Assembly: GCF_019649055.1 (NCBI RefSeq) | Contig: NW_026570377.1 | Location: 124,001 to 188,000 of the forward strand | DNA from: Paramacrobiotus metropolitanus | Lineage: Eukaryota > Tardigrada > Eutardigrada > Parachela > Macrobiotidae | DNA length: 64,000 nt | Direction of reading: 5' to 3' | In this document: positions 1 through 26,807 of the stretch, in pieces | Layout of the letters: each line of letters opens with the position of its first letter | How positions within the stretch are numbered: the stretch's first letter is position 1 | The notes under the pieces: generated by a model | What the model saw: the letters and a program-made list of their open reading frames with translations, nothing else | The model's database searches: none | Told to the model about the DNA's origin: nothing | Program-made: the position numbers and the translations under genes

Positions 1-43
1 ATTTTATAGCTACTGAAAAGCTTTTATTGCTAGCATTTCGCAG

Positions 44-2443: not shown

Positions 2444-4658
2444 CTATTCGACATTTTTGGTAGCCATTACCAGTCCTTGGATGGCCTTGGAAATGCATTC
2501 CGTTGGCTGAGCATACTTGCAGGCGGGCTTAGAGTCCATAAACTTAATCAAAGGAATATCCCTGACACTGCATCCGTACTTCTGGAACAGGCCATTGATG
2601 ATGCTATCAAAGGTGTCCTTGTCGGCTTTGCTTAGCTTTCCGGGATGGCCGCGTGTACTGGCGTAGACGAAGGGTTTATCGCACACATTGGTCTTCGTAT
2701 TGGGGATTATACAGCCGTAATCCACAGAGAATTTGGTGTTATCGTAGTACAGCCCGTTCATATTGTTAAGAACTGTAAAATGTATCCGTAAACAAAATTC
2801 ATCATAAAATATCAATGTAATAATACGTATAATTTATACTTATACGAATATCGTACCAGGCATTGGTTGACCCAGCGTCATAACATCAAACCCAATCTGC
2901 TGGCCGTTGTTGCCCACAGCTCCGGTCCAGAAACCGGTGTGACATGTTTTGTCGTTTTCCCCGTTATACTGGGAATACTCAATCCACTGCCACTGCGCCG
3001 GGATAGCGCTGAGCGGCAGTTCGCCCCGCCCGATGTTGTGCACGGTGTACTGCTGATTAACACTGTTCGGCTCGTCGGCGTACAACTTCCGGTACATGTA
3101 CCATAATCCCGTGACCTGATTTTAAATTTTAAAATTATCTACCTAATTATTATGTATTTTTTAGCATAGTTTTGCTTATAAAAATTGTAACCAAAAGTAA
3201 ACAAATGTTACCTATGCACCTGTTATGAGAGCGGCAGTTTACGAGTAAGTAAATATACAGTACTTTACATTTTTCGGTTCGTGTGTTTTCACTCCGGGAA
3301 TGGTCAGTGGCCATTTGCAGGCACTAGCACTGTTGCCGCTTTTGGAGGCAGGGACGTTGTTCGTAGCACCCGGCTTGACGACAATCTCACCGAGACCTTT
3401 GACCATCCGCGTGGTGCAATCCGGTGGTGCGGTGAATTCGCAGTACGGCTGCGACAACGACTTTACCCTAGGTATATCGTCAGCTGTGATACAGTATGGT
3501 TCCAGGAATGTACTAATAATTTTATCGAATTCCGCTTGTTTCTGTGTCGTCAAATCTTGCGGACGTATACGGATGTCGGCATAGATGACCGGCACGTCAC
3601 AGGTGGATTTCAGAGCGTCGTTGTCGTTCTTCCGGAAACAACCATACTGCACCATCAGGTCTTTGTTGTCCGTGTATACCAAGGCCAAATTCATTGGATC
3701 TGAAGAACACCGAGAGCATCCATTTTGTTAGTGCTACTGTATATAATGATCAAATTATGGATAAATATGGAAGTGATGCGCGTATATAAGCTTTCCTGAT
3801 TGGATAGTTGCATACAAATATGCACCGCGTTTTTTTCATTTTTTTATGTATACTTGTATATCTTTCAACTTACGGATAACAAACCCATCATCAGCCGACA
3901 GACCGTAGCCAATTTTGCGACCAGAGGTGGAAAACATGGCCATGTAATAATCGCTGTGGCATTTTTTGTCGTTGGGGGTCGTGTATGCGCTCGCCGTCCA
4001 GTATGCCTGGGCGGGATCATTGGTCAACGGTGTCGTAGTAGGGCCAATTAGTGTTACGTTGATACGAATATTACCAACATTCGGTACGGTGGTGTCAAGC
4101 TGCCGGTACCGGTACCAAATACCACCACTCTACAAACAATCACAACTGCAAACTATTGAGCCCTTTTCAAAATTCAGAAAATAAGATCTTAGTAAATGTG
4201 CTTCCTTGCGCGGATAGCATTAACATTACCGGCTGAAAGAATGGCAGTGACACAAACAAAGGGCAGACATTGCTTAATCACCTGTTCCGGCTGCACATTG
4301 CTTGCGAAGGTCGGCATTAGATAGGGAAACGTCTTTTCCGTGCATTTTGAGGGTTGCGGAAGCCGCAGTTGTAACCGATAGGACGGTAGCTACAATTACT
4401 ACTGCTTTAAGGATCACTTTTGGGTTTTTGCACGTTGCACAGATTATGCGGAGTAACGAATGCTTAACAAAGCTTGCTGATAGAGCTAGTGTGCATTCAG
4501 CATATGCTTCTACTCTGCATATACAACTGCAATCAACAGAACAGCAAACAAATACGAAATGTATAAACGAATGTAAACGAATCAAGTACAGTAGTATGTA
4601 AACGAATATACTTAAAAGAATCAAATGCCGTACCTGACAGATATGCAAGAAGCCACAT
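2444..4658 (-). CDS. Two-domain secreted lipocalin 1 (possible frameshift in exon 2)
   Basis: Most divergent of three lipocalin paralogs. Exons in transcript order: 4634-4658, 4282-4401, 3874-4129, 3269-3699, 2857-3115 and 2444-2772. Exon 1 (MWLLAYLS) plus exon 2 makes a signal peptide ending near TTAASA. Domain 1 opens with GIWYRYRQLD (GxW signature), followed by VYTDNKDLMVQYGC (TD motif) and DIRIRP (C-terminal Arg motif). Domain 2 repeats the order: GLWYMYRKL, LYYDN...VDYGC, STRGHP. The family binds small hydrophobic ligands in a beta-barrel. Exon 2 is one base too long to join signal peptide and domain 1 in phase: an AAAA run (4345-4348 on the complement) stands where lipocalins 2 and 3 have AAA. 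Either an assembly or allelic indel, or a real disabling mutation. All other exons are open and phase-compatible. Confidence 0.78.
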
Positions 4659-6025
4659 TTCCCGTTACAATTTTGGTTTAACAACGAGGCAATTATTCCA
4701 GAATCACTGAATCCAGAGCTAGTGCTCAAGAGTCAAGGCACAGAACCCATTAAGACGTTCTGCTTCTGTTCCTGTACGTGTCACAGTGTTCCCCATACCA
4801 AAGAGTGTGCGAAAAAAAATCAGATTCAGTGCGCTACCGCCAACCGGTTTTTTTATGCCGGTTACCTAATAAACAATAAATCATTAAGAAAGTGTAATGC
4901 ATAGTTTTTATCGCCTTCAACTTTTATAGGCGTGCTAATGCAAACACCAGCCATGCGCGTACCCATGCCCCACCAGTGCCACCACATACTCGTACCCTAG
5001 TGCTTGGGTATTTTTTAACTACGGATGAAAAATAGCTCAGCTGTAGTTTACCAAACCTGGATCTGAAAATTCAGCAATTAAGTTATCGCTGCTTTCGAGT
5101 TCTTGTTTCTTAATTATTGCTTCTGCGCAGTAGCTGTTATGTACATTGCTCGCAGTAAAATGTTTTATTAGTTTTCTTTGTCTAAACTATGGGGTAGTGT
5201 CACGGAAAACAACACAGCTTTAAGCAGTACAGATCTTTTACTGCTAAAAACCTTATAGATATTGCATAATAGTGCAATATATCTGTAGTGTATGTACAAT
5301 TACAGGGTATTTAATACTAGAAAAATGCACTTTGGCGTGCATTGGCAGACCGAAGCGCAGCTTAGTCGCTTAATCATGGTGTTGAAACTGTTTTTATTAT
5401 CCTTTTCCGTTTTTACTGAAAAACATCCGTCTTTTGATGAAAGTATTCTCATTGTGTCAAAAGTTTTATTAAGTCTCTTAATTCAGAAATGATTCCTAGT
5501 GATCAATGATCATACATACCTTAATCTCAAAACTTGATTTTTCAAGGAACAACCGTATTTTCTAGTGCGTGCTGAAGCAAAATAAAACCCTTTCATTTGT
5601 GCAAATTTTGAACACATTTCGACATACGCATTTGACCAGTAAAAATGCCACCCTTTTTACAAAGAAAAAAGGTGCCGACCTGACATTTTCAACACGCCGC
5701 TCTTGTCACCATAAAAACAGTACCCTAACTCTTTTACTAGAGTGACATCATGGGAGGAAATGCTAAGAAAAGCCCATTTACGTCTCTGCTACCGCACCGC
5801 ACGCATATACATCACCACGCGTCATTCCCAAATTTAAATGGTAGACCTAACGTTAAATTTTGTGCTTGGACAACGAATTCAGTTTTCCTGCATCCAAGCG
5901 ATTCATCGGCATGGAATTAATATACTTTGCGGCATAGATATACAGCACAAACGTCCAGCATATAATTGGCAGGTATACCTTGTCACTATACAATGCAGTG
6001 AACACACGTTGAACACTTAGCTTAC
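4659..6025. other. Gap upstream of lipocalin 1; nothing recognised
   Basis: Presumed promoter and intergenic DNA of lipocalin 1. I see no conserved exon, RNA gene or transposon end. Open frames here are short and resemble no family. Confidence 0.5.
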
Positions 6026-6294
6026 GAATAACATAGTCATCATCGGCGGAAAGCCCGTATCCCACCTTTACGCCCGGGTCGCCGAGGATGCCCATATGGT
6101 AATCCGAGTGGCATTTGCCGTCAGCGGTACTATATATACGCCGTGGTGGACCAGTAGGCGTGGGCCGATTCGTTGGTGAGCGGTGTTGTGGCGGCGATGG
6201 CTCCGATGAGGGTCACATTTACGCGAACGTTGGTAATATTACCTGGCTTCTTGCTGCCGTCAAGAGAGCGATAATGATACCAAATTCCGGTCCA
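6026..6294 (-). pseudogene. Orphan lipocalin exon (domain 1, first half), frameshifted
   Basis: Corresponds to exon 3 of the neighbouring lipocalin genes, with splice-like borders kept at both ends (CAG before 6294; C/GTAAGC after 6026). It encodes GIWYHYRSLDGSKKPG, TNVRVNVTLIG and TPLTNESAHAYW, then breaks at TATATATAGTACCGCTGAC: there are four extra bases relative to lipocalin 2, giving an in-frame stop, and the match resumes in another frame at GKCHSDY. No companion exons were found within 2 kb. Most likely a remnant of a fourth lipocalin gene. Confidence 0.82.
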
Positions 6295-7399: not shown

Positions 7400-7728
7400 A
7401 GAGAACATTTCTAAAAAAAACTTTTCTTCGTTGCGCATTTGTTCAAAAAAATTTAAAAATTCTGGCGGGGGGAATTTATCCGACTGGATGGAGAAGTTTT
7501 CCGTGTAGTTAGGGTTCAGAGTCGATGGCAGCGTTGTATCGGGGTCGAAATCTTGAGTGGGGAGGGGCTTCTTGGGAAGGTAACTGGAGTTTAAAAATTT
7601 AATATTGCTCCATGTCCATACTTTTTTCCATCTCGGCCATGAAGACGTGATTATCGGTAATTGCACTGCGGACGAATAACGTACAGGTAACAGGAGTAAA
7701 ATATTACTGTTGCAGATACAGCGAGCAT
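7400..7728 (-). pseudogene. Decayed 5' copy of the catalase-fold-like gene
   Basis: Aligns with the start of the intact gene at 21905-22861. The signal-peptide start (ATG at 7728) is followed by a stop after about 25 codons; in another frame it encodes ILNSSYLP-like, LPTQDFD and TLNPNYTE, then EFPP-like residues before similarity stops near 7445. The 5' flank (7730-7960) also matches the flank of the intact gene at 22870-23100, including the CACCAACTCC and AAAAGCCGCATTACGA stretches. A truncated, frameshifted relic. Confidence 0.82.
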
Positions 7729-8299
7729 TTTTACGGTTCTGAGACTAAATTAACCGCGTTCGACATAGGGTCGTCACCGCAGCATTGTGCATTGTCGGCT
7801 GATGTACCACCAACTCCTGTTGTTCACTACAACACTGATAAAAGCCGCATTACGAGCGTCGAGTGTATTGGCGCTTCTTCCTTAAGTCAAACGCTTGCAG
7901 AACCGAGGTACCCCTCGCATGCGGTTGCATATGTAGATGTGTAGTTTGGTTATATGGGTATATCCATGGCAAGCCAGAGCGGACTAAAGTAGAGAACCAT
8001 TAAACTGTGTCTAAACCATTAAACCATTAAACTGTGTCTAAACTCTAAAGGTTGATTATTAGTGGGAGAACGGGCACTTTTAATTGTGCCGGCTCAAATG
8101 ACTGCAACCTGTTCCAGTTTATTTCGTAGGTTTTCAAAACAACTCTGCGCCAACATAAGTACCGGCATCGAATTGCGTGTGTCACATTAACGAAAATATT
8201 GTTCGAAACTCTCCCACCACAAGAAACTGGAAACTGACAAAGGGCACACCATGATCACTAAGACTTGCCCTAAACTAGTTATCATCCTTCAGTGCCCGT
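7729..8299. other. Cassette spacer with local tandem duplication
   Basis: 7730-7960 is the homologue of the catalase-like gene's 5' flank. Around 7998-8042 the string CCATTAAACTGTGTCTAAA occurs twice. 8080-8290 resembles the 3' flank of lipocalin 3 (15470-15690), so this is part of the duplicated unit. No gene seen. Confidence 0.6.
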
Positions 8300-10922
8300 T
8301 CAGACCAAGGTGGCTCGTTTGAGACCCTCGACGGCCTTGGCAATGCATGCTGTGGGTTCGGCAAATTCGCAGGCTGGTTTGGAATCGATGAATTTAATCA
8401 GGGGCACATCTTTGACACTGCAGCCGTACTTGTTGAAGAAACCATCAATGATCTTGTCAAATTTGTCCCTATCGGCTTGCTTCAATTTGGTCGGTCGGGT
8501 GCGCGTGCTGACGTAGACGAAAGGCTTTTCACACACGCCGGTTTTTGTGTTGGGCACAACGCAGCCATAATCCAGCGCGAAATCGTTGTCGTAGTATAAA
8601 CCATTCATGTTGTTCAAAACTATAAAAAATACATAATTTGATTCTTAATTATTTTAGTTAAGTGCGGCTTTTCAGCAAAACGCGATTGAAAAGTGGTGTA
8701 GAAAGGCAGAACGTACCGGGCATGGGTTCGCCGGTGTTCGTAACGTCAAACCCAATCTGGGCCCCGTTGGCGCCCACAGCGCCCATCCAAAAACCGCTAC
8801 TGCAGGCGGTGTCCTTTTCGTCGTAGTACTTGGAATACTGAAGCCACTGCCACTGAGCGGCAATCGCACTGAGCGGCAGTTCGCCCAAACCGATATCGGT
8901 CACGTTGTACACCTGGTTAATTGTGTCTTGCTCGCCGGGGTACAATTTGCGATAGAGATGCCACAGTCCAACAACCTAAAGAATAATGTCAAGATATGAA
9001 GTGACTTATCCGTGTCAGCAGACAGAGTGGTTACCTTTTTCGGCTCGTGCTTCTTTTCGCCGGGAATGACCAGCGGCCACTTGCACTTGCTGTTAGTCGC
9101 CGCCGTGACCTTTTTGGCGTTGGGCTTAACAGTGATCTCAGCCAGTCCTTTGACCATTCGCGTCGTGCAGTCGGGAGCCGGCGTAAAGTCGCAGAAGGAC
9201 TCCGGCTTGTACTCAACTTTGGGGATATCAGTGGCTTTAATGCAGTTTAGCGAGAACATGACGTCGATGAGTTTGTCGAAGTCGGCCTGCTTCTGCGCGG
9301 TCAGGTCTTCCGGTTTGATGCGGGTGTCCACGTGGATGACCGGCTGGTCGCAAGTCGACGCCACGACGTCCTTGTTGTTCTTCTTGAAGCACCCATATTC
9401 GATCGAGAGCTCTTTGTTGTCGGTGTAGATCAACGCATAGTTCTGAGGATCTGAAAATATATTGCTGCTGTGATTAAAAGTAATAAACATGAAGAAGTTG
9501 CCGACAGCGGACAGAAACCGTCCACAACTAAATTTTATAACGCTTACATTATTAACGATATGTAATGAGCGAAATCAGTGGAGGTTTTTCTACACTTTGT
9601 ACTACCGGTAAAACCGGTTTTCGTACACTTGGTACTAAAGGTAGGAAGCAATTTTTCAGGAGACTTACTGTAATTTATTACATACCTTTGCATCAGTGCA
9701 ACACGCAGCACTTCAGAACATAAGTTACAAACACTGATTCTTTTGATATCAAAATTTATTAAACTTATTCGTAAGGCTGGTTACATGTCACCTGTAGAAT
9801 GCTGGCATGCGTGGCAGAGAATTACTGCTCGAGGCAACTATCTACCGAGAATGGCCGCACCTTTGCGCTATATAGTAACTAGTTATTTGTGATTCAGTGA
9901 CTATTGTTAACAAAAATGGAAAAGTTAGAACGGAATATCGGTAAGAAAAAAAGGCTGGCAAATATTGCAAAAAAGTGAGCACCATTATTATTGATTAGGT
10001 CGGCGGTATTCCGATAGTTATCGCTATCTACGTGTTAGGGCGTTTCTGCGAAAAATCTAACATTTTGTAATTGTACTGATAAACAGTGAACCCTTACGAA
10101 TAAGGGAGTCATCGACCGAGGAAAGACCATATCCAACCTTTCGGCCGGAATTGGAGTACATGGCCATATAATAATCGGCGTGGCATTTGCCATCATCGGC
10201 TTTATAAGCCGTCGTGGTCCAGTAGGCCTGAGCGGGATCGTTGGTTAGCGGAGTCGTGGTGGGTCCGATAAGCGTGACGTTCACGCGGACGTTGGTTACC
10301 GGTTTTCTGCTGGCGTCAAGAGAACGGTAGCGATACCAAATTCCACCCGTCTAGAAAAGGGTGGGGCATAGTATTGTGTTGTGCATAGTACTAATGTTGT
10401 TAGCTTGTCATGATCTGGTGCGAATTACATTTAGATAAAACTACAGTAAATAAAATAAAATAAATGAAGTACGAGCAATACTTAAATACCTAAATAAAAT
10501 TAAATACAATACCCGCAGTTTTTAAATAAATAGTATTAACTAATCAAGATAAATAACTGCATTAATAACAATGGTAATAGATTTCGATAATTGATAGATT
10601 AATGTAGATACATAGATTTAGATAATTGGTTATTTATAATAATTTTACTTAGATGAATTTGGACTTTTCAAAAGTTTACATAAAATTAAAAAAGTATACC
10701 GTTTCCGGTTTGGCGTCTGCAAATGTTGACATCAGGTAGGGAAACCTCTTTTCCGTACATTTCTGCGCCGAAACCACTACGCCCAGAAAACACACTGCAA
10801 TAGATACACAGTTTAGTGACCTTTATAGCCGTCTTCTGTAGCCGGTTCAAAAACCCAAAACTATGTAGTTTAGATTGAAAATGTGTTGACTAAAAGATAC
10901 CTGCAAGGTTAATGTATCTCAT
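8300..10922 (-). CDS. Two-domain secreted lipocalin 2
   Basis: Exons in transcript order: 10901-10922, 10700-10794, 10098-10350, 9035-9450, 8717-8975 and 8300-8619; all phases match, giving about 454 residues. Signal peptide MRYINLAVCFLGVVVSA, then QKCTEKRFPYLM. Domain 1: GIWYRYRSLD, HADYYMAMYSNSGRK, YTDNKELSIEYGC, DTRIKPEDL. A Lys-rich linker leads to CKWPLVIPG. Domain 2: GLWHLYRKL, LYYDNDFALDYGC, STRTRPTKL, then a C-terminal helix. These are the three structurally conserved lipocalin signatures (GxW, TD, R), present twice. There is no membrane segment after the signal peptide, so I infer a secreted ligand-binding protein. The donor of exon 3 was set at C/GTAAGG because the same site (GTAAGT/GTAAGC) is conserved in lipocalin 1 and the orphan exon. 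Ligand unknown. Confidence 0.88.
10436..10690. repeat. AT-rich low-complexity expansion in lipocalin 2 intron
   Basis: About 250 bp rich in AAATAAAAT/AATTAAAT units in intron 2 of lipocalin 2. The same intron in lipocalin 3 is only about 109 bp, so this stretch expanded after the duplication or was lost from the other copy. Confidence 0.6.
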
Positions 10923-11037
10923 TTTCAATAAAGTTGATTCACCGACCCACCAACTCCACAAGCCAGACTCAATCACTGTTCACAGTTTGTCGATGGGAGC
11001 CCAAACTGCTTTTTATATGCTTTGAACATAATGATGC

Positions 11038-11252
11038 TGTTACGAGTACGCCTCGTAACGATGGCGTGTCATGTCGTTTTCTGGTTTTCTTCTGCTTTCC
11101 GCCCTTCCGGGCATGTTCGATTATATTCACGGTTATGTGGTGTCGGATGTTCTTGCTTCTTCGGTTTCACCAACACTATTTCGGGTTCGTGTTCTTGTAG
11201 TTGTGGCTGTCACCCGTTGCCCTTTCTCGGGCGCCGCAGCACCCGCGCGACA
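11038..11252. mobile_element. Solo-LTR-like insertion, 215 bp
   Basis: Starts TGTTACGAG, ends GCGACA, and is flanked by a perfect 4-bp duplication ATGC (11034-11037 and 11253-11256). The paralogous position near 18510, in the cassette carrying lipocalin 3, lacks the insert and reads straight through (ATAAT...GCCATCGGC). TG...CA ends, a 4-bp target duplication and an empty paralogous site fit a solo LTR from a Gypsy/BEL-type retrotransposon. Its GC-rich content differs from the flanks, and open frames in it are incidental. Confidence 0.6.
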
Positions 11253-11731
11253 ATGCCATCGGCATTTTGACTTACAGTGATATAAAACTACTCTAAAGCA
11301 GAAATAATTTTAACCCCGCGGCGTTGTGCTTAGAAACTGTCATTACATGTCCGCAAATTGTAAATTGCGTACTGCGGTATAATGTTTTGCTTTGAAGTGG
11401 GCGTGCGGCAAATTACGTGTTTTTTACCGTTGACTTTTTTACAAATCCTGTTCTGGGTTGCTGAACTGCTAATAGGTTGAAAATGCAAATCATGTATGTT
11501 CGGTCCGATTTTGCAGAACTCATACGTTAATAACAATACAGGTGCAGTAGATTATAACAACAGCATAAGAATACTGTGACTAAAAAAATAATAATTGGAC
11601 GTTATAAGATTCGGTCTGCACGGTCTGTCGTTGCTTTAATTTTTATGTTTGTTTCGCAGAAGCGCGAATAAAAAGAATCACAAAATTTACGTACAAAATT
11701 GAAGCGTGACAACTGGAAAGATATTTAAAGT

Positions 11732-11882
11732 GTACAAGCTTGTCCGGTAATTTCCTACGTAAAGGTACAAACAGCACATATTTAGCGCTGAGTTTGCCTT
11801 ATGGCAATTGCCACTACACTACGTCGTAAAATTGTGTGTTTCGTTGTATTGATTCGTAAGAAATTACCGGACAAGCTTGTAC
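11732..11882. mobile_element. 151-bp element with 28-bp terminal inverted repeats
   Basis: Left arm GTACAAGCTTGTCCGGTAAT... (11732-11759) is the reverse complement, with one mismatch, of the right arm (11855-11882); the centre of about 95 bp is unrelated. The matching interval beside DPBB gene 2 (about 18950-18970) has no such sequence. It resembles a miniature inverted-repeat DNA transposon; no clean target duplication could be fixed. Confidence 0.65.
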
Positions 11883-11924
11883 GTCCCCCCATACGTATTA
11901 ACTGCAACATGAAAATTTGTGGTT

Positions 11925-12490
11925 TTAGCATTTGACAAAGGAGTAGGTGGCTCCCTGCAGAACACCGACAGAGGTAGCAGCAAACTGCTGGAAAGCAGTT
12001 TTGGACAGATCCAAGTGGGTTTTGGAACAGCTGGGGCATTTGTCCTTGACCGGCACTTTAATGGATTTGCCGTTGTAGGTGACGCGGACGCAGACGTTGT
12101 TGGTGCAGAAGGGGTCAACGTTGGGATTGGCGGAAGTGTACCACTGGTGACTGATGGCTACCAGGTTCTGCGTCGCAGCATTGATCTGTGTACCACACGC
12201 TCCGTATCCGGCGTCATCGTAATAAGTCAACTTTGTGCCGGAAAAGGTCTGCCCCCAGGGAATGTTGGCTTGAGCGCTTGCAACCTGCAAAATAAGGAAA
12301 TATAATTAATTTTATAATAATCTTAGGTTGCAACTTGCACCGAAGGAAATCTGTTATATAGTCTATATTCTATTTGTAATATGTGCCGCGATAAGCTGCA
12401 ATTACGACAACTGTTGAAATGTGTAAAGTGTAAACCGATGCACCGTACCATTGCAACTAAAACAAAGAGCGCGGGGCAATATGTGTCCAT
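11925..12490 (-). CDS. Secreted double-psi beta-barrel (DPBB) protein 1
   Basis: Two exons, 12449-12490 (MDTYCPALFVLVAM) and 11925-12284, joined at phase 0: signal peptide ending VASA then QANIPWG, about 133 residues in total. Mature domain: TYYDDAGYGACGTQINAA, SHQWYTSANPN, PFCTNNVCVRVTYNGKS, VPVKDKCPSCSKTHLDLS, AFQQFA, GVLQGATYSFVKC. This is the RlpA-like/barwin-type DPBB fold shared by expansins, fungal barwin-like secreted proteins and the Streptomyces papain inhibitor. Six Cys suggest three disulfides. There is no catalytic HFD motif, so lytic activity is unlikely; inhibitor or carbohydrate/protein-binding roles are possible. The family is mainly bacterial, fungal and plant, so ancient horizontal transfer is plausible. 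The single intron right after the signal peptide is shared by all copies. Confidence 0.9.
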
Positions 12491-13525
12491 GATTTTCAAA
12501 TTATACGAAAGCTTGAATTAAGATTAAAAAGCTCTTTTACGTATATTGCGGTGAACGGGGAGGAATTTAGGAAAATCACTCGGATCTAGGAAAATAAAGC
12601 GCTATAAACTTGAATGTAAATTCCGGAGCTTACTGAGCTTTATATAAGAACCACTGGTTGCGGTATGAAATGCTATACCGGAAGAAAACATCCTGAAATT
12701 GCGCGTTCGCTAGTAACAGTTTCGATAAACTGGAAGACATCCTGCATTTAGCTAAAAGTAATAGCAATATCATAAAGATAACAGAACAGACTGTAAAAAT
12801 GTAATACGTACTGTAAGGGCAAATTACAAGTGCACTGGTTACTCACCTTGAAGTCGAAATACGCACGCGTACACGGAAGGCACTTATCTCGTCAACAAGG
12901 ATTCAACAGGGATATGAAAACTAGTAAGCGGAAAACTATCTGGTAATTTTCGTAAATGTTTTGCTTTCAGTCTTGAGGTTTACGAAGTTACTCATCTTGA
13001 AAGATATCGTGGGCAGTTATCTGATGTAGAATGCGAAGTGCGAATAGACAACGCCAATTTACCGCCAAAATGAAACTGGGCGTACGTCGATCGAGAACAT
13101 AAGTACCGCATACAAATAAGTTTTAGCGGGTAAAAGTGTTAATCAAAGATCGAATTTTAACAAAAATCATTAATTTTATGCACTGAACTATATATTTAGC
13201 ATTTTCTTCGCATTTTAACATAATTTCAAAACGGGTGTTAACACACTGTGTATGGCCACGGAAGTTAGTGAATCCAACTTGCCCGATATGCGATATAAGG
13301 TACTGCAAACACGCTGATATACTTACTTTAATTTTTATCCTATAATTTCGTGACACTAATAATAGAGATACCGGTAATTAAATTCAGTAAAGCCTCTATT
13401 CAAAGTGGACAGGAAGTATTTTATTGCAGTCGTCCGTATTTGGTCGCTACGAATTCAGCTGTGCTTGAAATTGAAAGGAACGCATAATAAAACGGTACAT
13501 AAAGTAAAAATTTTTTGCGCTTGAT
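12491..13525. other. Cassette spacer; nothing coding recognised
   Basis: Parts align with the 19550-20720 interval of the second cassette (for example TATAAACTTGAATGT near 12604 and GGTATGAAATGCT near 12662), so it is duplicated non-coding DNA and DPBB promoter region. No open frame resembles a known family. Confidence 0.5.
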
Positions 13526-14056
13526 TAGCCACGTACAAACGGGAATTTGCTCCATGCAGGTGAGCATTAAAGTTGTCGGACAGCTTCTGCACAGCCGGTG
13601 TTGGGCCAGTCGCTATGGCAGCCTACGAGTATGGCAGCCAGCGACAGTCCCGCTTCCGGTGTGCTGACTCACACCGAGTCGCACTCGCTGTCGAGCGCTA
13701 GATCGGCCTCGACTCAGGCAGCTTTCCGCCCAGCCTTACGTCTCGGCCAATCATCGGCCTCGATGTAGGTGGAGCCACGCCCCACTTCCACATCTCGGCC
13801 TATCAGCGTTCGTTCGCTCGTGTTGGATCTGCCCAGTATGCCGCATAGGCTTTTTCCATGCTTTGGCTCGATATGCCGTTCATTTCTATTTCACTAGCAT
13901 TATCATTTTCACTGTACTTTCACGATACTGCTCGCACCTCGAGCCTTTGTGTGTTGGTTCTTCACTTTATTGCTATCACAATAAAGCCTTCTCTCACTAT
14001 CGTGAGCCTTTGTTCGCCAGCTGTCACACCGGTTTGGAAAGAATCAAATGCGCACG
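13526..14056 (-). pseudogene. C-terminal DPBB relic split by an LTR
   Basis: 13526-13598 and 14033-14056 together match the 3' end of the DPBB relic at 20722-20820 (shared strings AATTTGCTCCATGCAGG and GGTTTGGAAAGAATCAAATG). The frame is broken and only the last ~30 codons remain. The 430 bp between the halves is the solo LTR listed separately; similarity stops at about 14056. Confidence 0.75.
13599..14028. mobile_element. Solo LTR, 430 bp, 4-bp target duplication
   Basis: Begins TGTTGGGCC, ends CTGTCACA, and is flanked by CCGG on both sides (13595-13598 and 14029-14032). The paralogous copy has the uninterrupted site AGCCGGTTTGG (CCGG at 20793-20796), so the insertion boundary is exact to the base. 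AATAAA occurs at about 13980 near the 3' end, as in an LTR polyadenylation region. The first half is markedly GC-rich. No internal retrotransposon genes are present, so I infer recombination between LTRs of a Gypsy or BEL/Pao-type element. Confidence 0.8.
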
Positions 14057-14990: not shown

Positions 14991-15695
14991 CCCAATTGTC
15001 TACTTATCTGGAAGCGGCAATTTTAAGATAACCCGAGCAAATATATATATATAAAACATTTTATTATGCTTCATTTAGATACCAAATATGGCTTTTGCAC
15101 ATTTTTTTCTTTTTTTAGATTTTTAAACACTTGCAGAAAAAATATACCTGCCTTCTTAGACCAGATTCAGTTTCTGGAATGCAGTATTTACACAAATGAC
15201 ACCTTGTTGCATTCGGGTAAATTTGCGCCAGACACAAAAAATTTCAGCTTTTGAGAAATTCCGCTAGTAGGTACCCAGCAGGTATAAAACAGTAGATAGT
15301 AGGTACCTTTGCCTAAATGCCCGTGAAACATCCGTTTTTTTCTGTCAACTACAATAGCGCCTGTGGAAACAAGAACACGCTTGAACGTAGGGTTTTTTAA
15401 CATCAGTACTTGTACAAGGACAGCACACAGGAGTGTAGCTCGCTTATCAAACATTACGAGTAATCTTAATTGTACCGGCTCAAGACATTCCTACCCTATT
15501 CCCCTTTAATTTCTTAGATTCTCAAAACAAAACAATACATCAAAAGCAGGTACCGGCGTCAGATTTGCATGTACCGCATTAACGAGAACATTTATAAATC
15601 TTCTTTTACCATAAAGATATCAGTAAATCTGATAAGCGGTACACCATGATCATCAAGCTGACGGGTCCTGAACAATTACGATGCTTCAGTTTTAT
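14991..15695. other. Spacer before lipocalin 3
   Basis: An ATG-started minus-strand frame at 15188-15454 begins MFDKRATLLCAVLVQV, faintly signal-like, but has no recognisable domain or paralog. 15470-15690 matches 8085-8299 and belongs to the duplicated unit. Confidence 0.4.
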
Positions 15696-18400
15696 CTATG
15701 CCGAGGTAGCTTGCTTGAGGCCCTGGACGGCCTTGGCAATGCATGCAGTGGGTTCGGCAAATTTGCAGGCTGGTTTGGAATCGATGAATTTGATCTGGGG
15801 AACGTCCTTGACACTGCAGCCGTACTTGCTCAGGAAACCGTCGATGATCTTGTCAAATTTGTCCTTATCGGCTTGCGACAATTTTGTCGGCCGGGTGCGG
15901 GTGCTGGCGTAAACGAAAGGCTTTTCGCATACGCTGGTTTTGGTGTTGGGTACAATGCAACCGTAATCCAGCGCGAAATTATCGTCGTAGTATAAACCAT
16001 TCATATTGTTCAAAACTACGAGTAGAAAAAATGCGTAGTATGGTATATAATCTTATATGTGGTGGTGCGAGTATCTGTATCTAGTATTTATAATTACATA
16101 TATATTCTATATATGTCGAAGTATTCATATGAAATATATTTATATGTAGTATAGTATGATTATTATGTTTTAATTAGCGTTAAATACGCTGTTACAGCGT
16201 ATATAATGCGTTGAAAAATGGCATCGAAAATAGACAATTACCGGGCATGGGTTCGCCGGTAGTCATAACGTCAAACCCAATCTGGGCTCCGTTGGCGCCC
16301 ACAGCGCCCGTCCAGAAACCGTTGCGGCAGGTGGTATCCTTTTCGCCGTTGTACTGCGAATACTGAATCCACTGCCATTGAGCGGCAATCGCACTCAGCG
16401 GCAATTCGCCCAGGCCGATGTTGTTGACGTTGTACATCTGGTTAACTGAGTCTGGCTCGTCGGCGTACAGCTTGCGATAGATGTGCCATTGTCCAACAAC
16501 CTAGTGAGTTACAATAATTTCAAAAAAATTAAATTTAATGTCATTTATTTTATTAATTATGAGAAGCTAATCGGCCGCGTCTGCAGAGGAGGATGGTACC
16601 TTTTTTGGCTCATGCTTCTTTTCGCCGGGAATGACCAACGGCCACTTGCATTTGCTGTTAGTCGCCGCCGTGACCTTTTTGGCGCTGGGCTTAACCGTGA
16701 TCTCAGCCAGCCCTTTGACCATTCGGGTTGTGCAGTCGGGAGCCGGTGTGAAGTCGCAGAAGGCCTCCGGCTTGTATTCCACTTTGGGGATATCAGTGGC
16801 TTTAATGCAGTTAAGCGAGAACATGACGTCGATGAGTTTGTCGAAGTCGGCCTGCTTCTGCGCGGTTAGGTCTTCCGGTTTGATGCGGGTGTCCACGTGG
16901 ATTACCGGCTGGTCGCAAGTGGACGCCACGACGTCCTTGTTGTTCTTCTTGAAGCACCCATACTCGATCGTGAGCTCTTTGTTGTCGGTGTAGACCAACG
17001 CCAGGTTTTGAGGATCTGAAAAGGGGTAGCTATTGTGATTAAAAGCGATAAACGACTTACCGGCATTGTACATGAAACGTCCGCAGCTTAATTTACGATA
17101 GCGTTTTGAATAAAATCAGTGAGGTAAAACCGGGTTTTTTCTACAATTATGGTTCGTGTCAAAGTTAATAAGTACAACACTTATTTCAGGAGAATTGTAC
17201 AACATACAGTATTTTTACCTTTGCGTCAGCGAAACTGCAACATGCAACATTTTAGGATACAAGTTACAGATGCAAATTATTTGATTATATGAAAATTATT
17301 GGAAAGGCTGGGAACATCTGTCTCATTCTGTTCCAACAGAATGCAGATAATAACACCTGCAAATCCTAGCATGCATGCGTAGCAAAGAATTGCGGCTCGA
17401 GGCAACCACAAATCTCGAAGACGCACCTTGGCACTAGAGTGGTAATTAATTTGGTGCAGCAACTAATATTAAAAAAATTGAACAAAAATTAGACCGGAAT
17501 ATCGACAGAAAAAATCTGGCAAACTAGCACATAATTATGGCTCGGGGAAATAAGTCAGATAACCGCAAAGATGTACTTGCGCGCTACTATCTTTTAAAAA
17601 CTGTTAATGCAAACGATTAATATTACCAAACGTCAGCACCACTAGGCCAGCGGTATACGAATATTCACCTGCTGTTGCCTTAATGAAAAAAGATAACATT
17701 TGTAATTATACCGGTTGCACAGTGAACCCTTACGAATAAGGTAGTCATCGTCGGCGGAAAGACCGTATCCAACCTTTCGGCCGGAATTGGAGTACATGGC
17801 CATATAATAATCGGCGTGGCATTTTCCGTCGTTGGTCTTATACGCCGTCGTGGTCCAGTAGGCTTGGGCGGGATCGTTGGTCAGCGGAGTCGTGGTGGGT
17901 CCGATGAGGGTGACATTCACGCGAACGTTGGTAACCGGCTTCTTGCTGGCGTCAAGGGAGCGGTAGCGATACCAAATTCCACCCGACTAGCAAACGGACG
18001 CATATTACGTTGTGCATAGTAATGCATTTCGTTAGTTTATCGTGATCTGGTACAAAATAACGCAAATTTAGGCAAAATGCAAAAAATGTATGTACCGTTT
18101 CCGGTTTGGCGTCGGCAAATGTTGACATGAGGTAGGGAAACCTCTTTTCAGTGCATTTCTGCGCCGAAACCACGACGCTGAGGAAGCACGCTGCAATAAA
18201 TGTGCAGTTTAGTAATCTTTACAGCCATTTCCCGTAGCCGGTTCAAAAACTAAAAGTTTAGGTAATGGTAATGGTTTATGTAATGGTTTAGTTTAGGTAA
18301 GTTTAGCTTAGGTAATGGTTTAGGTTTAGGTAAACTAAAAGTTTAGGTAAAGTCAATACTCTACAGACTAGCAGATACCTGCAAGAATAATGTATCTCAT
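15696..18400 (-). CDS. Two-domain secreted lipocalin 3
   Basis: Exons in transcript order: 18379-18400, 18096-18190, 17734-17986, 16600-17015, 16242-16500 and 15696-16015; phases all match (22+95+253+416+259+320 bp, about 454 residues). Signal peptide MRYIILAACFLSVVVSA, then QKCTEKRFPYLM. Domain 1: GIWYRYRSLD, YTDNKELTIEYGC, DTRIKPEDL. Domain 2: GQWHIYRKL, LYYDDNFALDYGC, STRTRPTKL. Exon lengths and sequence are nearly the same as lipocalin 2, so the two are recent duplicates; exons 3 and 5 occupy equivalent positions, showing that the two-domain form arose by internal exon duplication. Domain 2 has YYDD/YYDN instead of the canonical TD. Predicted secreted carrier or sequestering protein; ligand unknown. 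Confidence 0.9.
18251..18350. repeat. Degenerate GGTTTAGGTAA minisatellite in lipocalin 3 intron
   Basis: Imperfect repeats of TTTAGGTAATGG and GTTTAGGTAA in intron 1 of lipocalin 3. Absent from the matching intron of lipocalin 2, so it expanded after duplication. Confidence 0.8.
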
Positions 18401-19006
18401 GTTCAATGCAGTAGATTCACCGACCGACCAACTCCACAAGCCAGACTAAGTTACTGTCACGGTTTTTCGATGGAAGCCCAAACTGCTTTTATATGCTTTT
18501 AAAATAATATCGCCATCGGCATTTGAATTTCAGAGGCATTAAACTATTCTCAAATAGCAGCAGTGTTACTTTAGCCTCGAGTCCAGTGTTGTCTTAACGT
18601 GTCCGTAAATTGTAAATTGCGGTGCCATCTTTTGCTTTGGACAAGTACGTCTTTTTTATACCTTCTAAATTTTTTATAAAATCCTGTTTTGGTTTGTTGC
18701 ATCTATTAATTGGTTGAAACTGCAAATCATGTGAGTTCCACACGATTTTGCAGAACTTATATGTTAATGACAGTACAGTTGTAGTAGACTATAAGAACAA
18801 CTAAAATTCTGTGTCTCAAAAATATATAAGTATATGGTCATAAGTTACAAGTCTGTCGTTGCTTCAATTTTTATGTTTGTTATGCTAAACAGATGCGCAA
18901 ATAAAAAGAATCACAGATACATACATAATTCAAACGTAACAACTGGAAAGACTTTGAAGCGTATATCGCGTATGTGTTAAGTAACATCAAAATTTGTGCT
19001 TTTAAT
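18401..19006. other. Intergenic, lipocalin 3 promoter side
   Basis: Aligns with 10923-11731 of the other cassette minus the 215-bp LTR. No gene seen. Confidence 0.55.
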
Positions 19007-19548
19007 TTAGCATTTAACAAAGGAGTAGGTGGCTCCTTGCAGAACACCAACAGAGGTAGGGGCAAACTGCTGGAAAGCAGTTTTGGACAGATCCAAGTGG
19101 GTTTTGGAACAGCTGGGGCATTTGTCCTTGACCGGCACCGTGATGGATTTGCCGTTGTATGTGACGCGGACGCAGACGTTGTTGGTGCAGAAGGGGTCAA
19201 CGTTGGGATTGGCGGAAGTGTACCACTGGTGACTGATGGCTACCAGGTTCTGCGAGGCAGCATTGATTTGTGTGCCACACGCTCCGTATCCGGCGTCATC
19301 GTAATAGGTCAACTTCGTGCCGGAAAAGGTCTGCCCCCAGGGAATGTTGGCTTGAGCACTTGCAACCTGCAATAAGGGAGTGCAACTGATTTCAAAATAT
19401 TCCCTGGTTGCAATGAAGGAAATATTATGTTATAGTCTATTTTTAATATGTACCGATTAGCTAAAATTACGACGATTGTTGAATTATATAAACCGATGTA
19501 CCGTACCATTGCAACTAAAACAAAGAGCGCTCCGCAGTATGTATTCAT
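19007..19548 (-). CDS. Secreted double-psi beta-barrel (DPBB) protein 2
   Basis: Two exons, 19507-19548 (MNTYCGALFVLVAM) and 19007-19366, phase 0, about 133 residues, signal peptide ending VASA/QANIPWG. Nearly identical to DPBB 1 (differences include NAASQNL for NAATQNL and SITVPVK for SIKVPVK). The same motifs are intact: GACGTQ, PFCTNNVCVRV, DKCPSCSKTHLDLS and GATYSFVKC. The close match to DPBB 1, together with the matching flanks, places this copy in the duplicated cassette. Role as for DPBB 1: a non-lytic, disulfide-bonded barrel, possibly a protease inhibitor. Confidence 0.9.
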
Positions 19549-20721
19549 GGTTTCGGAATGTGCGAAAGCTTGAACTGAGGGTAATTACTCCTATACTTAA
19601 TTGCAGTGAACGAGTAGAAACTCAGAAAGATCAGTCGGGTCTAGGGAAATGAAGCAATATAAACTTGAATGTGAATTCTGGAGTTAATCTTGTACTGATT
19701 TTGAGCTTTATATATGGACTATCGGTTTGCGGTATGGATTGCTGTACCGGAAAAAAGCATCCTGAATTTGCGCGTTTGCTACTAATAACATCTGATAAAC
19801 TCGGAGACATCCCGCATTTGGCGGAGATTAGTAACAGTTCTAGAATATAAAGATAACACCACAGATTGTAAGAACGTAATAAGTGCAAATTAATATACTC
19901 TTATTACTCACCTTTAAGTCGGAATATGGACGCATACACTGAAAGCGTGTACGATTTTACTCGTATTGTATGTGCGTCCATAGTTATCTCGTCAACAAGG
20001 ATTCACTGGGGTCCGAAAATCAGTAAGCGGAAAACCATCTGGTAATTTCCGTAAATATTTTGCGCTTGATTCAATCTTGACGTTTAATGAGTTACTAATC
20101 TTGAGAGATATCTCGGGCAGCTATGTGATGTGCGAAATACGAACAAACAACGCTAAACTGGCGTGTGCGAGAACATGTACTGTACCGCACACAGATTTTA
20201 ACGGGTAAGAGCGTTAATCAGAAGTCAAATTTTAGCAACCTCTGTCTTCCAATTTGACAAATTTGGAATATTTTATAATATTAACATGTCAGTTTCATCC
20301 GATTGTTTTCATTGGTGTAAATATGAAGCTGTTATTATTACTGATAGATACAGACAGTTATTTATATTAATCAAAGGAATCGACTTGATACAACCTTTGG
20401 ATTCCGGTCTGTTTGCTGCAGCTTTTGCTTAACAGCTTTTTTTGCATACTTACTACAGCCAGATGATTTATATTCATCTACTGGGTAGGTATTTAGACGT
20501 CGGTACCAGTGCGAAAACGGACTGGTTCTGCAACTTCCCCCTGGAAGGTGTAGGTGCAAAAAAATTCCAAAGATAATTAAGTTTGAGTGAAGACAGTATT
20601 TTACTGAAATTTTCAGTATTTGGTCGCTACAATTTAGCGGCTTACCGTTCCGGATAATGAAACAGTGAGCGACAAATACGTATGTATATGAAGCACAGAA
20701 CATAAGAAATTTTCGCGCTTA
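19549..20721. other. Cassette spacer; nothing coding recognised
   Basis: Corresponds to 12491-13525 of the other cassette, with many small differences. No conserved exon seen. Confidence 0.5.
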
Positions 20722-21281
20722 TTAGAAGCGCACGAACGAGAAATTTGCTCCATGCAGGATAACATTAAAGTTATTGGACAGTTTCTGGAAAGCCGGTTTG
20801 GAAAGAATCAAATGTGTTTTCGAACAGATAAGAAATCTGTTCTTGACCGGCACATTGATGGAATCGGCGTTGCAGCTGACGTGGATGTAGACATTGTCCG
20901 TACAAAAAGATCAACCAAGGTCAAGAATTGAGAGCTGCTAAACACGAGGTCCTGTCGGCCAGCCTGGCCCGTACAGTCCATCCCCATAGTAAAAGGTCGG
21001 CTGCGCACCGGTAAAAGTTTCACCCCAGGGAAGTTTGGCTTGAGCACTGACAAACTGCGAGAAGACACCATAATTATAGCCTTAAATAGATTTTCGAAAA
21101 CTCACCGAATGCAAAGAATGTGGTCGACTTACTCGGCGAAGTTGTCATTAACAAGCACATCGCTAAGAAAATGTAAACCTTTTTAAAGTATTATATGTTT
21201 CATGTATAACTTTGTAATTACATACATGGGTACTATTGCCACCGCAACAATAATTAGTGCGCAGCGACAGTATACGTCCAT
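20722..21281 (-). pseudogene. Decayed DPBB gene
   Basis: Both exons of a DPBB gene are traceable: the signal exon (ATG at 21281, MDVYCRCALIIVAVA) and a second exon opening FVSAQAKLPWGETFTGAQ. In-frame TAG after about 38 codons, then a frameshift; the rest reads FCTDNVYIHV, VPVKNRFLICSKTHL, KPAFQKL and GANFSFVRF. The CPSC motif has become FLIC and the last Cys is Phe. Clearly a dead paralog, older than the DPBB 1/2 split because a fragment of it exists in the other cassette too. Confidence 0.85.
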
Positions 21282-21904
21282 GGTTTCTGTAAGGGATAAG
21301 CAGTTTTATTATTGCGAAATTAATAATAATGCAACGTAGAATGATAGTCTGATTAACGAAATCACATGGCTAATGAATGCAGTCTGTAAGTGAATTCACC
21401 AAGGGCATTCAACTTTTGAAGGGTTTGGCGCTAGATTGTAAATTTTTGTTTCGGGAAGTACTTCCCGATACCGATTCTCGATGTTGACGTCACATTTATT
21501 TTCGGGATGTCATCCCAATTTCATTTTCATACACAGTACCTACTCTGTATTGTAGAATATAGAATTCTCTATGTTATGTTTTATTAACATAACTATTCTA
21601 CAAAAATATCCGTATAGATGACTGGTGTGCGACCAAACAGAGATCTAGATCGATAAACCAATAATTATTAGCGTTGATGCTGCCAGTGTTGTTACGTAAG
21701 TATATGTGTTAAGCCGTTAACATTCGTTTTGTTTTCTCTGTACAGTGTACAGGTATCGAATCATTAATGATTTTGTTTTCTCGTACAAAGTGCATAAAAG
21801 TTTTTAAATTTCATGAGCATTTCCAACATGTAAACGCAAAATTAAATAATATTAACAAAAGTTTCAGAAAATTAAAATAAGTATAAAAAATCGCAGACGG
21901 GACA
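21282..21904. other. Spacer between DPBB relic and catalase-like gene
   Basis: AT-rich. Contains short palindromes such as CGGGAAGTACTTCCCG near 21454 and an inverted TATGTT...AACATA near 21570. No gene recognised. Confidence 0.45.
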
Positions 21905-22861
21905 TCAACACCGCTTGAAAGGATGCTGGAACAACAGATGATTATCACCATAATCGGACGCCACAAACTGTGTCTCTAAAGTGACTTGACCAATCAGCTG
22001 GTCCGTCGCGTTTTGCGTCGGCCTGGCGTACACAGCATACAATAAGCGTCCGGCCGGAATTTTCGCCAAATTCACTCGAAAATCCGTCGTGTCATTGGCC
22101 GGCTCAGCGTTATCCGGATTGGGCACCAGCGTGTAGATCAGCGGCGGATACGGATAACTCACGCTCTGCCCATCTTGCTGTACTGAGGCAGCCGACAAAA
22201 AGGGCAATTTATTCTCATCCAGCGGCTGATTGCACGGACCACCGGGCAAAATTTTAATCGTCTGTCGCGATGCATTGACCAAATTTTCCGTCATCGGACT
22301 GAGACTACTGGGAATGGGTATCCAATTGCTAAAGTTATGCAAGAAAAAGTTGTGATTGGATCCCTGGCCAGCCAATCCGGTGACCATGTCCTGCGCGAAC
22401 ATATTCACCGATGCCTGTCCATCAATGAAGATCTTCATGGCAAAACCGGGAATAATCGCCGTCATATCCAAGTTCAGCCAGGATAAACGGACCAGGCCGA
22501 TGTTCTCGCTCATCCCTTTGAAGATGCCGGTGTAGGGCGACTGGGGCAGCAGGGAGAAGAGCACTTTGGCCACGACGCCAAAGTGGTGGATGATCTTGTT
22601 GCGACCCGGGGGGAATTCATCCGACTGGATGGTGAAGGCTTTCTCCGTGTAGTTCGGATTGAGGGTCAATGGCAGGGTTGTGTTGGAGTCAAAATCCTGC
22701 GTGGGGAGGGCCTTGTTGGGAAGATAACTGGAGTTTAAAATATTATTCCATATCCAGGCTTGTTTGTCCACTGCGGACATGGAAACGTAATTATCAGGCA
22801 GTGCATTTAGAACGAATAAGATACAGGAACAGAATAATACGGTTACAAATACAGCGCGCAT
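21905..22861 (-). CDS. Secreted catalase-fold-like protein
   Basis: Single exon, 318 residues from ATG at 22861. A hydrophobic signal peptide (MRAVFVTVLFCSCILFVLNA) precedes LPDNYVSMS. The middle (about residues 75-170) carries KIIHHFGVVAKVLFSLLPQ, SPYTGIFKG, GLVRLSW, PGFAMKIFIDGQASVNMFAQ and NFFLHNFSNWIP, a pattern that resembles the N-terminal barrel of the heme-dependent catalase superfamily. The classical catalase heme-Tyr helix and a full-length fold are not seen, so peroxide dismutation should not be assumed. A relic lies at 7400-7728. Several N-glycosylation sites (NSS, NTT, NYT, NFS, NAS, NDT, NAT) fit secretion. Fold assignment is from pattern memory and moderate; the gene itself is clear. 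The start is chosen because the signal peptide follows it directly. Confidence 0.7.
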   Translation of the reverse strand: MRAVFVTVLFCSCILFVLNALPDNYVSMSAVDKQAWIWNNILNSSYLPNKALPTQDFDSNTTLPLTLNPNYTEKAFTIQSDEFPPGRNKIIHHFGVVAKVLFSLLPQSPYTGIFKGMSENIGLVRLSWLNLDMTAIIPGFAMKIFIDGQASVNMFAQDMVTGLAGQGSNHNFFLHNFSNWIPIPSSLSPMTENLVNASRQTIKILPGGPCNQPLDENKLPFLSAASVQQDGQSVSYPYPPLIYTLVPNPDNAEPANDTTDFRVNLAKIPAGRLLYAVYARPTQNATDQLIGQVTLETQFVASDYGDNHLLFQHPFKRC

Positions 22862-25333: not shown

Positions 25334-26327
25334 TTTGATGTAGTAAGTTCCATGTATAAGCCGTATGCCAACCAGTATGTTTTTGATAAAAGCGCTTTCA
25401 TCGTGAAAACATGATTTAAATACTGATCCAGTGCTAAGTAAGTGTAAGGCGCCAGTGTAAGGCGCAGCGTATTAAATTGTGAATTGGTAGGAGCACATGT
25501 TTAACTTTGTTTACCATGGTACTGACTTTAGCATCAGAAGTTGGTGAAAGTGAATTTTAAAAGTTTATGATGAGTCAAAGACGGTGGCTGCAATCTGTCT
25601 GATATCGTAGTTCCTACACGCAGACATAAGTATTTATCATTTTTATTAGAGAAATTCAAACACCTGTGAATGCAGATTAGACTGCCAGGCGATATGTGTT
25701 GTGCAGACCCGAGACGTGACGGCGACAGTATGTTTAAGTAGAGTTATCGCGCAATGTTTGACGTTAATTGGTACGTCTGGAGTACGTAGACTACGTAAAA
25801 TTACAACGAAATTGTTACAATTAAAACGCATCCGTCCTGGCTCCGTATTTTGACGGGGCTCGGCACATCTAATCCATGAATGCCTTTTTACGAAATCGAA
25901 CGGGTGAGTAACATCCATATACATCCATGCATAATTCAGTACGAAATCATAATGCTAATCATAAGGGGCAAAGATTTTTTGAGATTGCAGAACAGATTAA
26001 TATTTTAGGCTGCTTTTTGAAGTACACATTTTTACTGTCATGTAGTGCGCTTACCTGAACTGCATGATGTCTGCATCTTAACACCCGGTTGGGCTGGATA
26101 TTTTTACCGAACAGTAAACGGTGTCTGATGTAGTGGCATGTAAACATCTGGTCGAGTTTATCGGAATTATAAGTCATTAATTTTAATGAGCACAGATTGC
26201 CGCTTTATAATGTCACAACAAGGCTAACGTTATACAAAAATCTAATCAGTAACTGATTATGAGTACGCGAAAGACAAGAAGGCATATAGTTTATCACGCA
26301 TTAGCTATATCATTAATATTTGTTTTT
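25334..26327. other. GPCR upstream region; nothing recognised
   Basis: Open frames here (minus strand, 25646-25924 and 25959-26177) show no domain, signal peptide or splice context. Treated as non-coding. Confidence 0.45.
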
Positions 26328-26807
26328 TCAGCATTTCACAAAGGAGTAGGTGGCTCCCTGCAGAACCCCGACAGAGGTATCGGCGAACTGCTGAAAAGCA
26401 GTTTTGGACAGATCCAAATGGGCTTTGGAACAGCTGGGACATTTGTCCTTGACCGGCGCAGTAATGGATTTGCCGTTGTAGGTGACGCGGACGCAGACGT
26501 CGTTGGTGCAGAAGGGGTCAACGTTGGGATTTGCGGAAGTGTACCACTCGTGGCTGATGGCCACGAGGTCTTGCGAGGCAGCATTGATCTGCGTACCACA
26601 TGCTCCGTATCCAGCGTCGTTGTAAAAGGTCAACTTCGTGCCGGTAAAGGTCTTTCCCCAAGGAATATTGGCTTGAGCTGATACAATCTGGTAACAAGCA
26701 GTACCCATTTATAAAAAGGTCATAAGTTAGCAAATGACAAGGTGATTTAATGCATCATTACGTACCACTGCAGCCAGAGCAACAAATACACCGTAATAAG
26801 AAGCCAT
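26328..26807 (-). CDS. Secreted double-psi beta-barrel (DPBB) protein 3
   Basis: Two exons, 26766-26807 (MASYYGVFVALAAV) and 26328-26697, phase 0, about 136 residues. Signal peptide ends IVSA/QANIPWG. Motifs: TFYNDAGYGACGTQINAAS, SHEWYTSANPN, PFCTNDVCVRVTYNGKS, APVKDKCPSCSKAHLDLS, AFQQFA, GATYSFVKC. More diverged from DPBB 1 and 2, with a 68-bp intron, and not flanked by lipocalin or catalase-like copies, so probably the older or founder copy. All Cys and the DKCPSC/HLDLS core are conserved, indicating purifying selection. Confidence 0.9.

Follow-up and report, generated by a model that had tools for sequence, protein, structure and literature searches.

The DNA analysed here, called the window throughout, is a 64-kb stretch of the genome of the tardigrade Paramacrobiotus metropolitanus (contig C157, 124001-188000; GC content 37.5-46.5% per 2-kb step). 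Between positions 2444 and 26807 it carries genes of three families: a double lipocalin, a small protein with a DPBB domain, and a protein that we call catalase-like or catalase-fold. The genes and their broken copies are listed below in window coordinates. DPBB 4 is the gene that a first-pass annotation of this DNA had numbered DPBB 3.

2444..4129, minus strand: lipocalin 1, exons 3-6 (3874-4129, 3269-3699, 2857-3115, 2444-2772), two lipocalin domains, open frame
5997..6288, minus strand: orphan lipocalin exon-3 fragment with a broken frame, a relic (self-BLAST, tblastn)
7466..7957, minus strand: catalase-like relic, about 340 bp downstream of the lipocalin 2 stop and on the same strand, 73% identity to 22607-23084
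8080..13604, no strand assigned: colinear repeat unit, copy 1 (self-BLAST)
8300..10922, minus strand: lipocalin 2, six exons, 454 amino acids, two lipocalin domains
11925..12490, minus strand: DPBB 2 (type of the Streptomyces papain inhibitor, SPI), two exons, 133 amino acids
13497..14050, minus strand: DPBB relic of block 1, split by an insert resembling a long terminal repeat (LTR) at about 13606-14028 (self-BLAST, tblastn)
15466..20801, no strand assigned: colinear repeat unit, copy 2 (self-BLAST)
15696..18400, minus strand: lipocalin 3, six exons, 454 amino acids, two lipocalin domains
19007..19548, minus strand: DPBB 3 (SPI-type), two exons, 133 amino acids
20695..21064, minus strand: DPBB relic of block 2, two internal stops (self-BLAST)
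21905..22861, minus strand: catalase-fold protein gene, one exon, 318 amino acids, hydrophobic N-terminus
26328..26807, minus strand: DPBB 4 (SPI-type), two exons, 133 amino acids

Architecture of the array

Self-BLAST of window positions 1-30 kb gave one colinear pair, 8080-13163 (with 13497-13604) against 15466-20238 (with 20695-20801), at an offset of 7.1-7.6 kb. Each member holds three elements, with the genes on the minus strand: a double lipocalin of six exons, a DPBB gene and one DPBB relic. Nine matched segments (8080-8622/15466-16018, 8714-9488/16239-17053, 9805-9962/17373-17523, 10051-10427/17687-18059, 10688-10854/18082-18250, 10888-11032/18366-18508, 11338-11734/18590-18963, 11906-13163/18983-20238 and 13497-13604/20695-20801) lie in the same order on a single diagonal at 73-87% identity, and span exons, introns and intergenic flanks. 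The catalase-like match, 7466-7957 against 22607-23084, falls on a separate diagonal of 15.1 kb, or two periods, and the DPBB copies stand at about 12.0, 19.1 and 26.4 kb. Searches with tblastn gave no catalase-like trace within 13.6-15.5 kb and no lipocalin trace within 21-26.4 kb (best E 2.6 in each). Because the catalase-like copies are two periods apart and there is a single colinear pair, the simplest reading is a tandem array of about 7.3 kb period that is decaying with gene losses. In low-to-high order its unit would have comprised the catalase-like gene, the double lipocalin, the DPBB gene and the DPBB relic, repeated each 7.1-7.6 kb; the middle unit would have lost its catalase-like gene and the last unit its lipocalin. 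The broken copies are the orphan lipocalin fragment at 5997-6288, the catalase-like relic and both DPBB relics.

The first-pass annotation had described two repeated blocks here, and the self-alignment does contain colinear blocks that share strand, lipocalin and DPBB exon lengths and flanks. What it misplaced is the catalase-like gene, which lies outside the colinear pair. Its block limits (7.3-14.1 and 15.4-23.1 kb) are in the wrong register, one in which the catalase-like copies fail to align, and are therefore rejected: the intact gene (21905-22861) sits at the high end of its second block, the relic (7466-7957) at the low end of its first. The older, eroded unit that it proposed survives for the orphan lipocalin fragment and the catalase-like relic, both of them broken. 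It does not survive for lipocalin 1, whose exons 3-6 are open with good splice sites; in comparison with lipocalins 2 and 3, nonsynonymous differences (pN) of 0.18-0.21 stand against synonymous differences (pS) of 0.75-0.78, the synonymous sites being saturated. With an open frame and few amino-acid-changing relative to silent differences, erosion was rejected for these exons. The signal-peptide exon of lipocalin 1, near 4283-4400, is by our reading out of frame with the remainder in the given sequence. The secretion signature that the annotation had seen was borne out, by hydropathy only, for six products (DPBBs 2-4, the catalase-like protein and lipocalins 2 and 3). Each is hydrophobic at its N-terminus, and further along the chain no 19-residue segment averages above 1.27.

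Lipocalins 2 and 3 have the same exon lengths (22, 95, 253, 416, 259 and 320 bases), GT-AG introns and open 454-residue frames, each with two homologous domains encoded by exons 3-4 and 5-6. A G-x-W motif opens the first strand in both domains of lipocalins 1-3 and of a related fusion gene on contig C60, described below. Ratios of nonsynonymous to synonymous divergence (dN/dS; NG86, custom script) were 0.136 for lipocalins 2/3, and 0.099, 0.223 and 0.182 for DPBBs 2/3, 2/4 and 3/4; purifying selection is thereby indicated in every measurable gene pair. We modelled the lipocalin structure from a distant paralogue outside the window, readable without splicing (read through an intron). The model (pLDDT 69.7) has eight long strands in a barrel (3-11, 23-35, 40-53, 59-70, 75-81, 112-120, 124-133 and 139-148), a short strand at 88-90 and two helices. 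The 50 Foldseek and 50 VIA rows shown were all lipocalins (best E 1.4e-06, best Z 12.0), and we infer a lipocalin fold for the window's own domains by homology to the modelled paralogue. A PDB profile search with the lipocalin gave seven weak matches (E 0.53-1), three of them bilin-binding proteins. The host genome holds at least 113 exon matches to this lipocalin-like family on 17 contigs, often clustered and often two-domain.

The 423-base insert that interrupts the block 1 DPBB relic (13606-14028) has TG...CA ends and CCGG on either side. Of 152 candidate copies in the host genome, 40 near full-length ones were scored, at 89-100% identity. Since such copies exist, some of them in same-strand pairs 13-31 kb apart, the insert looks like a solo LTR.

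The DPBB genes and their inhibitor relatives

The three DPBB genes each have two exons, a signal exon of 42 bases and a second of 360. The initial PDB clue was 5ntb, the Streptomyces papain inhibitor (E 4.5e-39), and the NCBIfam equivalog NF041659, a cysteine/serine endopeptidase inhibitor profile, was matched at 167.9 bits against a cut-off of 150. Run on the host assembly (169,799,020 bases in 533 contigs), this profile gave 27 matches. Only the three window DPBBs exceeded the cut-off (160.9, 166.4 and 168.1), and the next match scored 87.9; of fourteen control genomes only Deinobacterium chartae gave a match, and it stayed below the cut-off. Plasmid records yielded five matches, in Streptomyces and Streptantibioticus. 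The top one, at 61% identity over 87% of the query, is a Streptomyces anthocyanicus protein annotated as a cysteine/serine endopeptidase inhibitor, with a gene longer than that of SPI (1,146 bases).

A tree of 17 rows groups the window DPBBs with three Streptomyces-type proteins at 97/99, with the S. anthocyanicus protein adjoining at 88/91, and places seven other host DPBBs apart. These seven leave out L012 (near-identical to L011), the stop-bearing L004 and L010, L005, L008 and matches whose locus was not fetched. Elsewhere in the genome the nearest SPI-like copies, on contigs C26 and C74, carry stops, and no lipocalin or catalase-like match lies near them in the 7.5 and 7.0 kb read. We regard it as likely, from similarity and tree position, that the DPBBs were acquired from an actinobacterium. 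Other DPBB genes of the host, partly clustered, occur on contigs C69, C114, C74, C38 and C3; their sequence is barwin/RlpA-like and not of the SPI type.

What these proteins do is suggested by the family to which they belong. SPI is reported to inhibit papain, gingipains and trypsin at nanomolar level as well as the growth of various bacteria, and to be lacking in most sequenced streptomycetes (PMC4757070). Papain is also blocked, according to another report, by a DPBB protein of a fungus that has 37% homology to SPI (PMC7662947). From family membership, the window DPBBs would most likely block extracellular cysteine/serine proteases. They add to an inhibitor family already described, in a host where it was not expected, and our literature search gave no match linking tardigrades with a papain inhibitor. 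One could instead suppose that they act on walls or polysaccharides, as expansin-, RlpA- or barwin-like proteins, and not on proteases. The Pfam DPBB_1 match (E 4.5e-12) and weaker expansin, barwin and kiwellin matches would fit this; however, the expansin EXLX1 profile reached only 48.4 against its own cut-off of 100 while the SPI profile passed its own, and the tree groups the window DPBBs with SPI, away from the expansin-like rows. We consider a wall-directed role unlikely.

Within the array, DPBBs 2 and 3 are 96% alike over 300 bases (11924-12223/19006-19305), compared with a mean of 77% over the whole 1.3-kb match. Synonymous divergence is 0.37 for lipocalins 2/3 and 0.20 for DPBBs 2/3, a near twofold difference. 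Gene conversion between DPBB 2 and DPBB 3 is possible.

The catalase-fold protein and its partners

The catalase-like gene is a single 957-base exon. Its AlphaFold model (pLDDT 93.1) matched, in Foldseek, the Mycobacterium avium 33-kDa catalase-related protein 3e4w and coral allene oxide synthase (E 9.9e-05 and 1.3e-03), and the VIA rows shown (Z 10.1-11.1) were catalases, catalase-related proteins and chanoclavine synthase. A PDB profile search with the protein gave no significant match. On the model, the protein has a catalase fold. At least 17 catalase-like matches occur in the host genome, on ten contigs.

Right for the fold, the label that the gene first received is wrong for the enzyme. 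The last residue of the model lies opposite residue 347 of human catalase, whose proximal heme-ligand tyrosine is Tyr358. Because the model stops at that point, the proximal heme-tyrosine segment is absent, and because the segment is missing the protein is not to be named a catalase; we rejected that assignment. A secreted antioxidant catalase would fit the catalase fold, and also one His and an R-x-S motif, invariant in 26 of 26 aligned sequences, which may correspond to the distal His and Arg of catalase. However, the protein ends ahead of the heme tyrosine, and all 27 relatives examined likewise stop at most 11 residues past the aligned stretch, which makes an antioxidant catalase most improbable.

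Cyanobacteria, Pseudomonadota and Bdellovibrionota yielded sixteen bacterial relatives, to which three plasmid records are added; the window protein is 28-39% identical to the bacterial rows. We fetched 18 bacterial loci, including two of the three plasmid records (H3 left out). In 15 of them, a relative of one cyanobacterial peroxidase-family protein lies within the fetched stretch. This partner is alpha-dioxygenase-like: all eight partner proteins scanned contain An_peroxidase, and the one compared with the PDB (from L060) matched fatty-acid alpha-oxidase/alpha-dioxygenase chains, which we take to be plant enzymes, at 1.3e-107 to 8.5e-106, far above cyclooxygenases. It lies near the catalase-fold gene at six of six cyanobacterial and three of four Bacteriovoracaceae loci. 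At six of the 18 loci (L059-L063 and L066; Pseudomonas, Atopomonas, Fluviicoccus and a gammaproteobacterial metagenome-assembled genome), the two form one long frame; elsewhere the partner adjoins on the same or the opposite strand, or is one gene off. Such pairs are unreported among the matches listed in our literature search.

In the host, the family has met another partner. Contig C60 carries a complete seven-exon gene with GT-AG introns (exons of 25, 98, 250, 419, 259, 617 and 612 bases; 759 amino acids). Its predicted polypeptide has two lipocalin domains followed directly, inside exon 6, by a catalase-fold domain. The catalase part is sister to the window catalase-like protein at 100/100 in a tree of 19 rows (ten host rows, without L037, L043, L044, the C50 match and the window relic, and nine of the 18 fetched bacterial loci). 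The lipocalin part is sister to lipocalins 2/3 at 95/95 (six rows, one long outgroup). Its halves show dN/dS of 0.197 against lipocalin 3 and 0.162 against the catalase-like protein, at a synonymous divergence of 1.2-1.4. Most simply, the lipocalin and catalase-like genes would already have been together before the C60 and window loci separated. The window order, in which lipocalin 2 is immediately followed, on its own strand, by the catalase-like relic, could be the source arrangement for such a fusion. The fusion, a gene predicted from sequence, is probably derived, because, of the other contigs with listed catalase-like matches, C10 alone bears a lipocalin match as well, about 29 kb off. 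More novelty than in the DPBBs, with their known inhibitor family, lies in the catalase-fold family and in its fusion to a lipocalin; both, like the present array, are unreported among the literature matches listed.

Joint function and known systems

We propose, as the explanation that probably holds for the locus as a whole, a decaying array of SPI-type DPBB, double lipocalin and catalase-fold protein genes in which the last two products share a ligand; expression, ligand and inhibition are predicted. Hypothetically, the array, with its period of about 7.3 kb, would yield three kinds of probably secreted protein. The DPBBs, papain-inhibitor proteins probably of actinobacterial origin, would most likely be directed against extracellular cysteine/serine proteases. 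The fold of the double lipocalin makes a small hydrophobic molecule its most likely ligand, and the same ligand is most likely acted on or held by the catalase-fold protein, as the single predicted polypeptide at C60 suggests. Our best guess for the ligand, a speculative one, is a lipid (fatty-acid) hydroperoxide, because the bacterial relatives pair with alpha-dioxygenase-like proteins. The DPBBs may share the array merely by hitch-hiking.

That hitch-hiking may be extended to the whole array, with unequal crossing-over copying chance neighbours that have no common task and leaving a neutral by-product. Units have been lost differentially and several relics remain. The genome matches listed (at least 28 DPBB, 113 lipocalin and 17 catalase-like) place all three families together on contig C157 only; beyond it, two contigs combine DPBB with lipocalin, C114 (about 32 kb apart at the closest) and C38 (more than 400 kb), and none combines DPBB with a catalase-like match. 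Against chance neighbourhood stands the C60 fusion, with dN/dS of 0.16-0.20 relative to the window genes; this objection covers the lipocalin and catalase-like families and leaves DPBB aside. We hold pure hitch-hiking to be a lesser but serious possibility. It is somewhat less plausible still that the three proteins make up a single secretion (for feeding, for defence or as desiccation fluid) and were co-duplicated for joint use. The colinear blocks, hydrophobic N-termini and purifying selection in the measured pairs fit one secretion, but the catalase-like gene is intact only once in the window and outside both colinear blocks, so that the three-gene set is not kept in equal dose. Of the co-function that the first-pass annotation had drawn from linkage, the lipocalin/catalase-like pair gains support from a second locus with both in one gene; because the closest relatives of both, among the rows compared, are that one gene, co-function beyond linkage is suggested for them. 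DPBB is still tied to the other two families by linkage only. Of the uses that the annotation had named, feeding secretion, defence, egg matrix and desiccation fluid all stay candidates.

Several points weigh against the shared-ligand array that we prefer. The catalase-like protein and the lipocalin family have no significant Pfam match (stray matches at E 0.11-0.22 only; nine lipocalin members scanned gave two unrelated matches at E 0.18-0.2). Foldseek TM-scores for the catalase-like model are low (0.37 or less), and the lipocalin model has moderate confidence (pLDDT 69.7), the modelled sequence being a distant paralogue translated across an intron. The DPBB tree came with a long-branch warning and unites the seven other host DPBBs at only 41/39. 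With the host as the only eukaryote compared, the three families may have arisen differently or be more widely spread. Among the genome matches listed, C60 has no DPBB match; lipocalin matches are missing from seven of the ten contigs that bear a catalase-like one, and on C10 the two are about 29 kb apart. Three of the 18 bacterial loci (L051, L064 and L069) are without an alpha-dioxygenase-like protein. A single query, the cyanobacterial dioxygenase protein, found no match in the host genome, an empty outcome that in itself shows nothing. Finally, expression, secretion and ligand binding of the array products are predictions made from the genes.

Other genes in the window include a Rhodopsin-family receptor exon within the array region (24542-25468, minus strand) and a GDA1/CD39 nucleoside phosphatase exon at the window edge (17-397, plus strand). 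Two similar trypsin-like peptidase exons (55507-55995 and 59369-59725, plus strand), both slightly below the Pfam cut-off and presumably HtrA-like in look, are perhaps a second tandem duplication.

If the proposal holds, a probable actinobacterial-derived animal gene family gains a directly testable function, protease inhibition. It also brings to notice a catalase-fold family without significant Pfam match that is paired in bacteria with alpha-dioxygenase-like proteins. The fusion of an animal lipocalin to a catalase-fold domain indicates, beyond linkage, a partner for an orphan lipocalin. A more ambitious interpretation, which we offer tentatively and think rather doubtful, is an animal-built secreted lipid-handling protein in which the double lipocalin passes fatty-acid hydroperoxide to the fused catalase-fold domain, while the array also secretes an actinobacterial papain inhibitor, giving an extracellular defence or feeding mixture made partly of bacterial parts.

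Each family has its known counterpart. The window DPBBs resemble SPI (PDB 5ntb, NF041659), with homology across the whole mature length and above the equivalog cut-off. They differ in their animal genome, in an intron after the signal-peptide part and in three intact tandem copies, and their inhibitory action is predicted. The lipocalins share the G-x-W start and a predicted eight-strand barrel plus helix with retinol-binding protein, nitrophorins and the Rhodnius biogenic amine-binding protein, whereas the host family has two tandem domains per chain, no significant Pfam match, its many exon matches (at least 113) and one copy fused to a catalase-fold domain. M. avium 3e4w and coral allene oxide synthase (1u5u, 3dy5), the top Foldseek matches, have the catalase fold, but the catalase-like protein stops before the proximal heme-ligand segment. 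As in the host, coral 3dy5 joins a catalase-fold domain to another domain, there a fatty-acid oxygenase; here the partner is a lipocalin, or in bacteria an alpha-dioxygenase-like protein, and not a lipoxygenase. The bacterial pairs are homologous to the window protein along the length of their catalase-fold part; in the host, the single query used found no dioxygenase of their kind.

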